From Pseudanabaena mucicola str. Chao 1806 (GTDB taxonomy: Bacteria; Cyanobacteriota; Cyanobacteriia; Pseudanabaenales; Pseudanabaenaceae), in assembly GCF_030323025.1 (NCBI RefSeq), contig NZ_CP097329.1:3954001-4018000 (forward strand): a DNA stretch of 64,000 nt. The letters are read 5' to 3'. Below the pieces are notes generated by a model that was given only the letters and a program-made list of their open reading frames with translations, had not been told where the DNA came from and ran no database searches. Shown one piece after another: positions 53,596 to 60,683 of this stretch. A program made the translations under genes and the position numbers. Within the stretch, counting starts at the first letter, position 1. Every line of letters starts with the position of its first letter.

Positions 53596-53922
53596 GTGAT
53601 CATCAAAGAGTTAGAACAGCAACTTCTTGCACTCAGACCTAGTGAAAAGGTGCAGGTGATCCAGTTACTTGCTCAAAGTCTGGGTAGCAATTGGCAGGGA
53701 ATTGAGAAAACGCCTAGAGTTTGCGGTGGTCATGCTTGCATTGCGAATACAAGAATTCCTATTTGGGTACTGGTAGAGGCTCGCCGTCTTGGATATAGCG
53801 ATGTTGATTTGTTAACGAGCTATCCAACGATTACGGCTACAGATTTAGCAAACGCTTGGGTATATGCGGCGGCACATACGGATGAGATGGATTTGCTGAT
53901 CGAGCAGAATGAGGCTGCTTAG
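53596..53922 (+). CDS. DUF433 family protein, antitoxin-like
   Basis: A 108-residue protein from GTG 53596. Residues 1-35 are helical (KELEQQLLALRPSEKVQVIQLLAQ), and residues 40-90 are the DUF433 winged-helix-like core: TPRVCGGHACIANTRIPIWVLVEARRLGYSDVDLLTSYP, in parts PRVCGGHACIANTRIPIW and LVEARRLGYSDVDLLTSYP. Only 3 bp separate it from a DUF5615 PIN-like gene, the usual partner. DUF433 is thought to be the antitoxin half, binding the toxin and the promoter. Confidence 0.82.
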   Translation: MIIKELEQQLLALRPSEKVQVIQLLAQSLGSNWQGIEKTPRVCGGHACIANTRIPIWVLVEARRLGYSDVDLLTSYPTITATDLANAWVYAAAHTDEMDLLIEQNEAA

Positions 53923-53925
53923 GAG

Positions 53926-54267
53926 ATGGCACGTTTTTACGCGGATGAGCAGTTTCCTTTTCAGGTTGTGGAATTGCTGCGAAATTTTGGTCATGATGTT
54001 TTGACAGCGCAAGAAGCGGGAAATGCCAATCAACGAATACCTGACGAGCAAGTGTTAGCGTTTGCTGTAGGTCAAGAGCGCTCTATTTTGACTATCAATA
54101 GAATTGACTTTATCCGTTTGCATCGTCGTGATGATGAGCATTTCGGGATTGTGGTTTTTACGAATAATCGTAATTGGGAACAGTTTGCGGCACGGGTTAA
54201 TGAAGCAGTAATAGCAGAGGGATCGTTACAGAGAAAGTTAATTCGGGTGGTTCGTCCGTCTGTTTAA
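53926..54267 (+). CDS. DUF5615 PIN-like toxin candidate
   Basis: A 113-residue protein. The acidic residues expected of a PIN/Mut7-C-type RNase are at D8, E9 (FYADEQF), E31 (TAQEAGNAN), D41 (PDEQVL) and D62 (TINRIDFI). It follows the DUF433 gene by 3 bp, with an AGGAG ribosome site inside the spacer. Probably the toxin of a type II-like pair that degrades RNA when free; untested. Confidence 0.8.
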   Translation: MARFYADEQFPFQVVELLRNFGHDVLTAQEAGNANQRIPDEQVLAFAVGQERSILTINRIDFIRLHRRDDEHFGIVVFTNNRNWEQFAARVNEAVIAEGSLQRKLIRVVRPSV

Positions 54268-54410: not shown

Positions 54411-56081
54411 ATGGCTAATCAAGAACATTTAGATATTTTCTGGCAAGGTTCAGATGTTTGGAACAAATGGATAGTCAAAAATCCTGATATCAAACCTGAT
54501 TTGAGCTATGCAGATCTTAATGGGGTAGATTTGAGTGATTCTACTTTTAACGGTGATATGAGTTATGCAAATCTTAGTGGAGCCAATTTAACCAAAGCTA
54601 CATTCTTCTTCGTGAACTTATCTGGAGCTATATTTCAAAAAACTAATTTCATTCGGTCTGTTTTCATACCACATAAGCCTGCTGGATTTGCACAAGCTTA
54701 TGCTCATATTGGTTCTTATAAAAATTTTGTTTTGGGTAACACAAATCTAAGTCATGCTAATTTAAGTAATTCAAATATGACTAATTTTTCATTTAGTAGC
54801 GGCGTTATTTTTAAAGGAGCTAGATTTGAAAAAGCAAATATTATTGAAGCAATATTTAAAGAGTTTAATCTTGAAGAAATCGACCTTAGTGGTGCAAATT
54901 TAATTGAATTAGATCTCCGTAGTTTTAACTTAAAAAGTTATTGCCTAATGAATTGCGATCTTAGTAAATCTAACTTAAGTGGGATGGATTTGAGCAATAT
55001 CAATTTTGAATCTACAAACTTAAGTAATGCAAAACTTATAAGGGTTAACTTGTCTAATGCTAACTTAACAAAAGCAATTCTAAAAGATTCAGATTTAGAA
55101 TATGCAAACCTCAATTACACGAATCTTAATAAATCAGATTGTGAAGGAGTCAATCTAAACAAAGCTGATCTTAGTTACTCGTGCTTTTTCAAAGCGAATA
55201 TGAGCCAAGCAAATCTATATCAATCTAAATGTTATCAAACAGACTTCCGAGAAGCAAACTTAGAATCAGCTAAGTTTGCAAATTCTGATTGCTTAAGAGC
55301 CAGTTTTTATAAGTCTAATCTTAGATTTTCAGTTTTCAATGGAGCTAATATTAAATTTGCAAACTTTCAGCAAGCAAATCTTCAAAAATCATTATTTTAT
55401 GCAGTGAATGCAATCAACTGTAATTTCTCTAATGCGGATTTAACAGATGCTTGCCTTGCCGCAATGCGTGGAATTGAAGCAAACTTTTCTGAAGCTAATT
55501 TAACTGGGGTTTGTATTGAAGATTGGAATATTAATGCAAAGACAAATTTGCAAAATACACTTTGCGACTATGTTTACAATAAATCTGGATGGGATGACGA
55601 TGGTAAATTTTTGCCTTCAGTTCGACTACCGCATGATCCAGCAATAAATTTTAAAACAGGAGAATTTGAGAAATTCATCCAAAAAGCCCAAAATACAGTC
55701 GATCTGATTTTTACTAATGGCATTGACTGGCAAGCATTTCTACAAGCATTTTTAAAGCTAAAATCTGAAACTGGCGACGAACTATCTATTTATTCGATAA
55801 AAGATAAGTGGGATGGTTATTTTGTTATTCGTGTCAATGTCCCGCCTGATGCAGACAAAAAGGAAATTGAGACTTTGCTCAAGGTAAAAGACACTCAAAT
55901 TGAAGGATATCGCAGAGAAAATACTAACTTGTTGAACCTATTGCAAACTGCCTTGCAACAACCTAGTCAAGCTTTTCATGCTCCTGTTTATGGAGTGGCA
56001 GGTAACTTGCAAGGCGATCAAAAAATTTATCCACTTAAACCTGATAATATTCAGGGTAATTATAATGAAAATGAGGAGTGA
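54411..56081 (+). CDS. Pentapeptide-repeat protein with C-terminal motif and tail
   Basis: A 556-residue protein. Residues 30-390 are a long run of A(D/N)LxX pentapeptides (LSYADLNGVDLS, LSHANLSNSNMT, and so on), expected to form a right-handed quadrilateral beta-helix. Residues 395-490 are a globular domain (WDDDGKFLPSVRLPHD, DWQAFLQAFLKLKSETGDE, DKWDGYFVIRVNVPPDAD). A short coiled coil follows, and then FHAPVYGVAGNLQGDQKIY (522-540), a motif also found in the third gene of this unit. It starts a three-gene unit with 6 bp to the next gene. Function unknown. Confidence 0.78.
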   Translation: MANQEHLDIFWQGSDVWNKWIVKNPDIKPDLSYADLNGVDLSDSTFNGDMSYANLSGANLTKATFFFVNLSGAIFQKTNFIRSVFIPHKPAGFAQAYAHIGSYKNFVLGNTNLSHANLSNSNMTNFSFSSGVIFKGARFEKANIIEAIFKEFNLEEIDLSGANLIELDLRSFNLKSYCLMNCDLSKSNLSGMDLSNINFESTNLSNAKLIRVNLSNANLTKAILKDSDLEYANLNYTNLNKSDCEGVNLNKADLSYSCFFKANMSQANLYQSKCYQTDFREANLESAKFANSDCLRASFYKSNLRFSVFNGANIKFANFQQANLQKSLFYAVNAINCNFSNADLTDACLAAMRGIEANFSEANLTGVCIEDWNINAKTNLQNTLCDYVYNKSGWDDDGKFLPSVRLPHDPAINFKTGEFEKFIQKAQNTVDLIFTNGIDWQAFLQAFLKLKSETGDELSIYSIKDKWDGYFVIRVNVPPDADKKEIETLLKVKDTQIEGYRRENTNLLNLLQTALQQPSQAFHAPVYGVAGNLQGDQKIYPLKPDNIQGNYNENEE

Positions 56082-56087
56082 CATAAC

Positions 56088-56261
56088 TTGCTTTCAGAAG
56101 CGCAGTTAAAAAAATGCTTTCTAGTTTGTCAAAGCCTATCAAGTATGTATTTACCCATTTATCTCGTCAGATTTGATTCACGATATAATGCTATTTACAT
56201 TCTCGCAGGCGAAGAAACAGAAGTATTGATTGGTAGTAACGGCGAAATAGTGGAGATATAG
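56088..56261 (+). CDS. Small 57-residue protein (DUF6888-like), TTG start
   Basis: 57 residues from TTG 56088 with GAGGAG 9 bp upstream. It reads LSEAQLKKCFLVCQSLS, then MYLPIYLVRFDSRYN, then AIYILAGEETEVLI and SNGEIVEI. The frame is closed immediately before the next gene (2 bp). The pattern resembles a small cyanobacterial family I recall as DUF6888, usually paired with a DUF6887 partner; this memory should be checked. Too short for simple gene callers, but start, spacing and codon use look real. Confidence 0.72.
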   Translation: MLSEAQLKKCFLVCQSLSSMYLPIYLVRFDSRYNAIYILAGEETEVLIGSNGEIVEI

Positions 56262-56263
56262 AG

Positions 56264-56842
56264 ATGATCCAGCCTGATTACAAACAAATGACTCGTACCG
56301 AACTACGGGAATATATGTTAGCTCACCGTGATGATGAGCAAGCCTTTCACACCTACATGGACAAAGTTCAGCAAGAAGCAGTCAAAACTCCAATCAATGA
56401 TGAAGTAATCGCCGATCCCCAAAAATTTGCTACTTTCATTGAACAAAATAAACAACGCAAACAGCAAGAAGCTACAGTACAACCAACCAATTCATTTAGC
56501 CAAAACTTTCACAGCACTGTCTATGGTGTCGCTGGTCATGTTGCAGGGAACCAAGTCATTAACGCCCAGCAACAAAGTCTAGTAAGTGCCGCAATGGAAA
56601 TCCAAGCACTTTTGACACAACTCGCTCAAGATTACCCTGAAGGCTCACCAGAAGAGAAACAAACAGTCGCTAAGATGGAACTTAGACGCAAAGTTAAAGA
56701 AGATCCAACTCTTAAAGATCGTTTGCTAAGTGCAATCAAATCTGGTGGTATTGAGACAGTGAAAGTTCTCACAAATAATCCCTTTGTCAGCATTCCAATA
56801 GAAACTATCAAAGGTTGGCTAGAAGCAGAACCTCAAAAATAG
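56264..56842 (+). CDS. 192-residue protein with DUF6887-like N-terminus and shared YGVAG motif
   Basis: Residues 1-46 (MIQPDYKQMTRTELREYMLA, then HRDDEQAFHTYMDKVQ) resemble the partner family of the preceding small protein, recalled as DUF6887. Residues 82-100 are FHSTVYGVAGHVAGNQVIN, matching residues 522-540 of the pentapeptide protein at 11 of 19 positions. Residues 101-192 are a helical domain (SLVSAAMEIQALLTQLAQDYPEG, then SPEEKQTVAKMELRRKVKE, and NPFVSIPIETIKGWLE). No enzyme motif. Third gene of the unit. Confidence 0.65.
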   Translation: MIQPDYKQMTRTELREYMLAHRDDEQAFHTYMDKVQQEAVKTPINDEVIADPQKFATFIEQNKQRKQQEATVQPTNSFSQNFHSTVYGVAGHVAGNQVINAQQQSLVSAAMEIQALLTQLAQDYPEGSPEEKQTVAKMELRRKVKEDPTLKDRLLSAIKSGGIETVKVLTNNPFVSIPIETIKGWLEAEPQK

Positions 56843-56918: not shown

Positions 56919-57054
56919 ATGGTTGTGAGAAATTCTATACGTATAGCTAAACAATCATCACCTTGGCGATCGCCTACATTTTTGATGATTGTAGGATTAA
57001 TTGGGTTGGTGATTGTTTTAGAATTCTCTACACCGCCCGAATATGTGATGGGGG
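56919..57054 (+). pseudogene. 5' fragment of a histidine-kinase gene cut by the IS
   Basis: A 44-codon frame begins at ATG 56919 and reads WRSPTFLMIVGLIGLVIVL, then EFSTPPEYVMG, which equals the N-terminus of the intact kinase at 59595 (WRSPTFWMIVGLIGAVIVL). DNA identity runs from 56962 to 57053 against 59614-59703. At the IS boundary the frame runs into the element and stops a few codons later (EHLN). A broken paralogous copy. Confidence 0.85.
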
Positions 57055-58237
57055 AGCATCTCAATTAGGCACTGAGTAAATATACTTAGAAGAATAGAAG
57101 TAGCCATTGAGATAAGCGCAACGATGTCTCAAAACTTGAGCAACATTGTTTTTATTCCACTGAGCACCCGAAATCTTGACCCGACGACCAATTTGTTTAA
57201 TCGACGATTCAACTGAGCCAGAGCCAATGGTAAGTCCCTGTTTCTGTAGATAACCATACTCAGGTATACGATGGTGATGATTGCGTAAATAAGCCAGAAA
57301 ATTGATAAATCGTTTGGATGTACACCCTGCAAATAGGTCAATAGCCTGCTCAACATCACCTTGCCATAGCAAATCTTCTACCTTGTCTAGACGACGCAAA
57401 GAACCACCAACAGCGTAAAGATGTTCTTTCAAATGATACCAGTCCAATATTTCAAACCTTTGCTCTGATGGTGCTATGGCTGCAAATAAGTTCCAGATCC
57501 CGTCATGCCCATCACCCAAACAAGAGAATATTTCAGCCAATGGTTGTTTTTGTACCCAATCAACCAAACCTTGGTTATCGAGAAAATAAGCTGCTACTGT
57601 GCCTTGAGCATTTACGGCTTTGTAATCTTTCCACTCACACTTTTTTCCTTTCTCAGTTCGCAATCTCACTTTACCGCCATCGATACTCATTTCTTCAACG
57701 GTTTTGGTGATGCTCATCTCTAGAAATTCCTGTTTCTGGACTAATCTCTGTTGGCTGCTATGGCTAATCTTGATTCCTGTTAATTCGGCAATATTTGCTT
57801 CCGTTCTGGCGTATGACTCACTGGCACTTACCAATAGGCAGCATTTTTCTAGTTGGGGACTCAATCTCGCTCTTGCTTTTACTTGCAACTTCTTTGCTTG
57901 CTTGCTCTTCAGTTTGAGTTCACCAATGCAGCTTTTTAGTTTTCTTTCTTTCCCTGCTTTTGTCCCACTGCTTTTTTCGACAAAAAAATTCCCACGTTTG
58001 GGCTGACATTTTCTAGCATTTGCTCCCGTACCGCTATTTCTATTCCTTCTAGTGTTTTCAATTGCTCAGCATCTTTTGCTTCTGCATTACGATACAAGAT
58101 TTCTGCTATCTCTCTGGTGCAGGCTTCGAGTCTTTCTTTTTCTTCTGGTGTCATTTGCTTTGACTAGATAACTTTTTTCTATTTTATCTCTCTTTTGCCT
58201 TAAGTATTTCTACTCAGTGCCTAATTGAGATGCTCCC
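57052..58237 (-). mobile_element. ISKra4-family insertion sequence, 1186 bp
   Basis: Left end GGGAGCATCTCAATTAGGCA and right end the reverse complement, with about 35 of 37 terminal bases matching (first 27 perfect). One transposase gene runs on the minus strand. No target duplication is seen (left flank ATGTGATGG, right flank GAATTGATA), and the flanks match two different nearby genes, so the junctions were formed or reshuffled by recombination. Confidence 0.85.
57061..58154 (-). CDS. ISKra4-family transposase in two overlapping frames
   Basis: The first frame (58154-57936, 72 codons) reads MTPEEKERLEACTREIAEIL and continues to VSPNVGIFLSKK, then stops. The second frame (from about 57981 to 57061) carries on with VEKSSGTKAGKERKLKSC, then the DDE core: MSIDGGKVRLR, GDGHDGIWN and GSGSVESSIKQIG. 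The switch is a -1 shift at a T7 run (57988-57982), where T TTT TTG lies in the reading register at 57987-57981. The joined protein would be about 364 residues, the usual family length. Either programmed frameshifting or a one-base deletion. Confidence 0.82.
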
Positions 58238-59478: not shown

Positions 59479-59594
59479 CATTCAGATCTCTATAGTCGTA
59501 TTATCTACGACTACTTGTGAAAGTTACTCCACGTAAGTCTAGCAAAACTATAGATTCTTGCGCTTTAAAAAGTAGCGATCAACCCTTAAAAAAT

Positions 59595-60683
59595 ATGAGA
59601 CATTTAGAACAAACTTGGCGATCGCCTACATTTTGGATGATTGTAGGATTGATTGGGGCGGTGATTGTTTTAGAATTCTCTACACCGCCCGAATATGTGA
59701 TGGGTTATCTCTACATCAGTCCGATTCTGATCGCTAATTCCCAATTGAGCCGTACTAGTACTTTTGGGTTCACACTAGCTGCTGCAATTTTGACACTCAT
59801 TAATATTTGGATTCCTAATTATGAAATAATTCAAGCTTCTATGGTTGTCAATCGTTTAGTAACTATATTTGCTCTAGTCGTGACCGCACTCCTGTGCGAT
59901 CGCAATCGACAAATACAGCAAATTTTAGTGCAGCAACAAGCCAAACTTCAAGCGCAAGAGAAAATTATGAATGTGCGCGAAGACTTTGCCTCTACATTAG
60001 CTCATGATTTAAAAACTCCCTTACTTGGTGCGATCGAGACTCTGCAAGCTTTTGACCGTGAACAATTTGGAACTATTGATACTAAACAAAAAACTGTAGT
60101 GAACACAATGATCCGTAGTCATCAGAATAGTTTGCAACTAGTGGAAACTCTCCTTGATGTCTATCGGAATGAAACGGAAGGTTTGCAATTACAATTAGAA
60201 CCAATTAATTTAGCCATTCTGGCGGAAGATGTGGCAACTTCACTGTTGAGTTTATCTACTAGTCGCCGTGTTTACTTAAATCTAAATTATGGAGAATCAG
60301 ACTTTCGTAAATTCCTTTGGGTTCATGGTGATGCCTTTCAATTGCGCCGAGTTTTTACAAATTTATTGACTAATGCAATTAATCATTCTCCGCGAGGTGC
60401 AAAAGTAGAATTAGTGCTAGAAACCCAATCTTCGCATCAGATTGTCCAAGTAATTGATGTTGGTGCAGGGCTTAAATCTGATGAGCAGCCCTACTTATTT
60501 GAGCGATTCTATCAAGGTCAAAGCGATCGCCTAGCTACTGGTTCGGGGCTAGGTTTGTACCTAACTCGTCAAATTATCGAAGCGCATAGCGGTACAATTT
60601 GGGCAGAAAATCGACATCCTCAAGGTGCGATCTTTGGTTTTCGCTTGCCAGCTTTGCCCTATTCATCCCATAACATTACCTAA
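59595..60683 (+). CDS. Membrane sensor histidine kinase
   Basis: 362 residues from ATG 59595 (MRHLEQTWRSPTFWMIVG). Three or four N-terminal membrane segments to about residue 100 (MIVGLIGAVIVLEF, YLYISPILIA, FGFTLAAAILTLI, VTIFALVVTALL) form a membrane-embedded sensor. The HisKA H137 sits in ASTLAHDLKTPLLG; the ATPase domain has NLLTNAINHSPRG (N-box), DVGAGLKSDEQ, FERFYQG and GSGLGLYLTRQI (G boxes). Signal unknown. The response regulator gene is 32 bp downstream. Confidence 0.9.
   Translation: MRHLEQTWRSPTFWMIVGLIGAVIVLEFSTPPEYVMGYLYISPILIANSQLSRTSTFGFTLAAAILTLINIWIPNYEIIQASMVVNRLVTIFALVVTALLCDRNRQIQQILVQQQAKLQAQEKIMNVREDFASTLAHDLKTPLLGAIETLQAFDREQFGTIDTKQKTVVNTMIRSHQNSLQLVETLLDVYRNETEGLQLQLEPINLAILAEDVATSLLSLSTSRRVYLNLNYGESDFRKFLWVHGDAFQLRRVFTNLLTNAINHSPRGAKVELVLETQSSHQIVQVIDVGAGLKSDEQPYLFERFYQGQSDRLATGSGLGLYLTRQIIEAHSGTIWAENRHPQGAIFGFRLPALPYSSHNIT

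Follow-up and report, generated by a model that had tools for sequence, protein, structure and literature searches.

A matched pair of 19-residue motifs in a pentapeptide-protein operon of Pseudanabaena mucicola: a candidate homotypic coupler between a putative sensor and a putative output protein

The operon and its two motif copies

The window analysed here, a stretch of 64,000 nucleotides from Pseudanabaena mucicola str. Chao 1806, contains three forward-strand genes, which are separated from each other by only 6 and 2 bases. The first gene (54411..56081), identified from the ORF list, encodes a pentapeptide-repeat protein of 556 aa (Pfam PF00805, E=1.5e-53), in which the repeats (residues ~30-390) are followed by an alpha/beta linker domain (residues ~407-515; 55629..55955, forward strand) and then by a short motif at the C-terminus. 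The linker domain, which is kept in other pentapeptide proteins, is modelled by AF2 with strands and helices at a pLDDT of ~60-70, and it gave no match in Pfam or the PDB and no confident match in Foldseek. Bacterial TRADD-N domains are of RRM-like fold and have a serine conserved in the turn between beta2 and beta3 (PMC7159879). The strands and helices of the linker domain are, at the low confidence of the AF2 model, roughly compatible with this fold; the conserved serine is absent from it, and in aligned homologues the turn reads D/G or D/A. The TRADD-N label was considered for this domain and, as it would be a guess only, it has not been adopted. The second gene (56088..56261, forward strand) encodes a DUF6888 protein of 57 aa (Pfam PF21828, E=4.9e-24), with a TTG start and a GAGGAG Shine-Dalgarno sequence; this gene is real, and its ORF is too short for the ORF list, which starts at 60 aa. 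The third gene (56264..56842, forward strand) encodes a protein of 192 aa, in which a DUF6887 region (Pfam PF21826, E=3.4e-18) is followed by the motif and then, in the AF2 model, by a C-terminal helical domain of ~85 residues (56573..56833). This candidate output domain, with four predicted helices (pLDDT ~66-78), was matched by nothing in Pfam, the PDB or the fold searches, and inspection by eye did not reveal a transmembrane segment in it. The AF2 models of both motif-bearing proteins, built from shallow alignments, are of low confidence (pTM 0.37-0.39).

The first copy of the motif, FHAPVYGVAGNLQGDQKIY, on what is presumed to be the sensor side, comprises residues 522-540 of the 556-aa ORF (55974..56030, forward strand; 56.6 bits, E=1.4e-14 with the motif profile), and the second, FHSTVYGVAGHVAGNQVIN, lies between the domains of the 192-aa ORF at residues 82-100 (56507..56563, forward strand; 51.1 bits, E=7.4e-13). 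The two copies are identical at 11 of 19 residues, as the initial annotation had claimed, and the match exceeds that seen after shuffling: the best 19-residue segment has 12 identities, whereas none of 300 shuffled pairs has more than 9. The placement of the second copy two genes on from the first is also correct, the DUF6888 gene being the one between. In a BLASTP comparison of the two proteins, the motif stretch is the sole significant match (17/32, E=1e-5), and over the whole 4.5 Mb genome only the two copies in the window score significantly with the motif profile. The copies did not arise by a recent DNA duplication, since the codon is shared at just 5 of the 11 identical positions and their DNA identity is 34/57. 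The flanks, which had been described as of low complexity, are rich in Gln, Lys and Asn and predicted to be disordered. The first copy is itself disordered in the AF2 model of the pentapeptide protein, and the second lies within a segment (residues 65-102) where the pLDDT is under 50. The core sequence G-(I,V)-Q-(I,V)-G of the RHIM, PP and BASS3 motifs (PMC7885112) is absent, both copies reading G-V-A-G in its place.

Directly upstream of the operon, a DUF433 and DUF5615 gene pair (53596-54267) resembles a toxin-antitoxin module. On the other side, an insertion sequence (57053-58236) with inverted repeats (GGAGCATCTCAATTAGGCACTGAG...) and a reverse-strand transposase ORF (57061-57888) truncates what looks like the beginning of a histidine kinase gene (~56920-57052); a longer kinase ORF is found at 59517-60683.

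Distribution of the motif and its partners in cyanobacteria

When a profile of the motif alone was run over 390 cyanobacterial genomes, ~40 strong matches were obtained. Two or more matches (E<=1e-3) were present in 10 of these genomes, and in 9 of the 10 they lie within 2.5 kb of each other, in different and otherwise unrelated genes, for which the probability under random placement is ~1e-26. The same short motif is shared by an adjacent-gene pair in the window and in at least 10 other loci, and the recurrence for which the initial annotation had proposed a search is found, with the motif at protein ends or between domains. The annotation had also allowed that the motif might be an element of a folded domain, such as a cap, occurring in many unlinked proteins. 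However, a folded cap is unlikely because both copies are predicted to be disordered, and the motif-bearing genes cluster. In a scan of named genomes, the motif was limited to cyanobacteria, the nearest being those of Pseudanabaena. An exact degenerate DNA pattern for GVAGxxxG(D/N), which gave mostly chance matches, was dropped. The module formed by the motif and the helical domain is more widespread (121 of 291 cyanobacterial genomes) and occurs on many proteins, in which it is preceded by pentapeptide, HEAT, winged-helix-like and other N-terminal parts and in which the motif itself is variable.

In the pairs that carry the window's type of motif, the smaller partner consists of the motif and then the helical domain, and the larger partner differs from one locus to another. 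Based on Pfam matches, the motif is C-terminal on NACHT-HEAT NLRs (Myxacorys L138, Phormidesmis L148, L089 and L162), near the N-terminus of NB-ARC NLRs (Microcystis L137 and L170), N-terminal on a NACHT protein (L165) and carried by a TIR protein (L157); NLRs are therefore among the motif partners in other cyanobacteria, in keeping with the likeness to NLR/effector motif pairs that had been suggested for this operon. The larger partner is a HEAT protein in L167 and L168, and a pentapeptide protein in the window, in L163 and in P. tenue (L151), where the tail copy is weak (13.6 bits). In other cases, the sensor and the helical domain are parts of a single chain, viz. NACHT-HEAT-motif-helical in L164 and pentapeptide-linker-motif-helical in L142, L143 and L145, and such a covalent fusion is an alternative to motif pairing. 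Within this motif type, partners resemble each other more than non-partners do (P~0.001, or 0.003-0.004 without near relatives; 13 pairs, a small number, with motifs excised by hand). The motif-helical genes that are unpaired or fused are about as many as those that are paired, and the motif is absent from some NLR neighbours (L152, L153). One further locus (L155, 4732-4959) has an ORF of 75 aa with the window's type of motif and, by eye, a CHAT-like remnant, for which there is no Pfam match; it is possibly a decayed effector.

The larger partner differs also among close relatives. In three genomes (G213, of the same species, and the relatives G172 and G246) the DUF6887-motif gene is kept and has no motif-bearing neighbour; in G213 (L053, 8745-11642) genes of 136, 393 and 100 aa replace the pentapeptide gene and the DUF6888-DUF6887-motif part is intact. 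In another genome (G158), a pentapeptide protein is encoded next to it, with a different motif and a helical domain at its end. The partner genes therefore come and go among relatives, and the small protein in G213, G172 and G246 may be idle or may act otherwise. The window genome gave no match to either of two NLR queries.

Further motif types in an independent set of NLR proteins

An independent set of NLRs was gathered by NACHT homology alone, the motif playing no part in their selection, and their gene neighbourhoods were then read. Four further types of C-terminal motif are present on many of these NLRs, each of which recurs in the N-terminal part of the NLR's own downstream small protein, viz. 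VGN.N.G.V.I.G(D/N)QIG (L180, L189, L207), FPNAxKVQIFE, referred to as type 3 (L178, L181, L186), DLRGAxIxNLAxxVxGxQI (L182) and FNAPVGxVxxG..TVHGDNIxTQNN (L193, L194, L198, L203, L204, L210); some NLRs of the set have no such tail. For the 13 unfused NLRs with typed tails, the comparison of the tail with its own neighbour gave a mean of 73 and with the others a mean of 47 (0 of 50,000 permutations), and for the 9 less redundant loci among these the own-neighbour match has P=1e-5, values which are somewhat flattering, as the tails were typed by regular expressions written after the pairs had been seen, so that the score matrix is independent but the choice of tails is not. With every NLR tail included, the first permutation had reached no better than P=0.015. 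This was due to fused NLRs and HEAT tails, for which the helical or HEAT proteins of other loci are also matches, and the restriction to unfused typed tails removed these cross-locus matches. As a positive control, the same procedure was applied to NB-ARC-TPR NLRs, for which a motif at the N-terminus of the receptor matches the C-terminus of the small neighbour (overall P=0.007; e.g. L244, L251, L224 and L228), in agreement with the order published for BASS/BELL systems (PMC7889193, PMC12261475). In four loci (L244, L245, L249, L251) the receptor motif reads NAKGYQVxVxGGTAYIGD and has its counterpart at the C-terminus of a neighbouring protein of ~150 aa, which is the classical BASS-like layout.

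In about ten of the 37 NLRs, the helical domain is instead part of the same chain. If such a fusion arose from an existing pair of genes, then both copies of the motif should be retained in the fused protein. The fused NLRs of L177 (5644-8901) and L184 (5521-8283) contain the type-3 motif twice in succession, with the start Met of the small protein inside, and this sequence arrangement would fit, as expected, the fusion of an existing pair. TIR proteins of the same motif type are found nearby in both of these loci, and in L189 the small partner has a CHAT domain. TIR and CHAT are known executioner domains. As they stand where the helical domain would otherwise follow motifs of these families, that domain probably has an output role too and is hence a candidate effector.

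Interpretation of the matched motifs

Based on these results, we consider it somewhat likely (a probability of roughly 0.6) that the operon pair comprises a sensor or scaffold and an output protein, for which the motif serves as a homotypic coupler, probably by prion-like assembly. The pentapeptide protein would be the sensor or scaffold and the DUF6887-motif-helical protein the output, the two being encoded, together with the DUF6888 protein between them, in one tight operon, and the 19-residue motif would be an unstructured coupler. If the sensor becomes clustered, then its C-terminal motif would recruit the output protein and template the same motif in it, the resulting assembly would probably be cross-beta and prion-like, and by the assembly of the output protein its helical domain would be oligomerised. 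The matching sequences suggest a physical interaction of the pentapeptide and 192-aa proteins, and the cross-beta, prion-like coupling is suggested by resemblance to known signalling motifs; a role in defence or cell death may likewise be envisaged.

Gene pairs of an NLR and an effector with matching motifs have been described before. In the BASS/BELL systems of NLR amyloid signalling (Dyrka et al. 2020), short matching amyloid-like motifs are present in adjacent NLR and effector genes and, in the published accounts (PMC7889193, PMC12261475), the order is NLR N-terminus with effector C-terminus. The loci described here are similar to these in having short matching motifs of several families, adjacent genes for an NLR and a small partner (helical, TIR or CHAT), and an occurrence in multicellular bacteria including cyanobacteria. 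However, the layout is here the mirror image (NACHT-HEAT C-terminus with the N-terminus or middle of the effector), the Pfam, PDB and fold searches recognised in the partner's helical domain no BELL domain, which would have a hydrophobic helix, and the window has a pentapeptide protein where, for this motif type, other genomes have an NLR; this distinction is drawn from the published descriptions of the BASS families. In fungal HET-S/NWD2 and PP and in mammalian RHIM, a receptor and an executioner also share a short Gly/Asn-rich motif, but the window motif differs from these in its core (G-V-A-G), as do its associated domains and topology. The cyanobacterial TRADD-N/EAD conflict systems (Kaur et al. 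2020, 2021; PMC7159879, PMC8195603) similarly combine unvarying adaptor modules with a changing range of pentapeptide, HEAT and NLR proteins, for the most part in multicellular bacteria; however, those adaptors are folded domains and the present one is a disordered motif of 19-24 residues. No description of a receptor with the motif at its C-terminus, or of a pentapeptide protein acting as the sensor, was found in the literature searched, in which the 2020 BASS work is covered through later accounts. A review (PMC7889193) asks whether signalling amyloids operate in NLR-independent bacterial pathways, the searches having been biased to the NLR/executor layout, and the window pair, with two 19-residue motifs in one operon, is a concrete and compact candidate for such a case. 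The wider set provides matched receptor-effector motif pairs of reversed topology from several lineages, and it points to matching motifs and gene fusion as two ways of wiring one sensor to one output. More tentatively, and at somewhat below even odds, these loci may represent a cyanobacterial mirror-image amyloid signalling code, in which several families of motifs at receptor C-termini are matched by effector N-termini, are interchangeable with fusion and reach pentapeptide sensors.

The pairing and type matching in genomes would fit any homotypic interaction, and the type-3 motif looks more amphipathic than Gly/Asn-rich. Hence, the matched motifs could instead dock one-to-one, by ordinary beta-strand pairing or as a small folded heterodimer, without any amyloid or prion-like templating. 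We regard this as rather unlikely, as AF2 gives no fold for either copy, and the Gly/Asn/Gln-rich sequence, the disorder and the NLR/TIR/CHAT setting are like those of proven amyloid signalling motifs (PMC7889193). The motif could also be a relic, viz. no more than the conserved N-terminal linker of the helical domain, left on the pentapeptide protein after it lost a once-fused helical domain. The existence of fused pentapeptide-motif-helical proteins, of sister genomes with fused or different tails and of orphan small genes would agree with such a loss. However, the loss of a C-terminal domain cannot account for the N-terminal motif on NB-ARC and NACHT proteins, a protein with one motif would, on splitting, give a single copy where the pairs have two, the fused NLRs of L177 and L184 have tandem copies with an internal start Met, and the matching holds across several motif types; a relic is therefore improbable. 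We give equally little weight to a non-immune scaffold, in which the pentapeptide and DUF6887/6888 proteins would co-assemble in housekeeping or developmental roles, since, despite the similarity of the pentapeptide part to the cyanobacterial HetL/Alr5209 families, the lack of PADLOC matches for the window proteins and the absence, in the literature searched, of work on DUF6887/6888 (or on the motif letters), elsewhere the motif is partnered by NLR and TIR proteins, and the set of partners differs between close relatives, as in conflict systems. Homotypic coupling of a sensor to an output protein, replaceable by covalent fusion, is the simplest reading.

Two minor observations concern the wider set of loci. 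Toxin-antitoxin-like genes recur beside many of the motif loci, e.g. L138, L148 and L172. In L172, L191, L202 and L206, NACHT-HEAT NLRs have, by eye, a C-terminal TIR-like domain at the position where others carry the motif tail.
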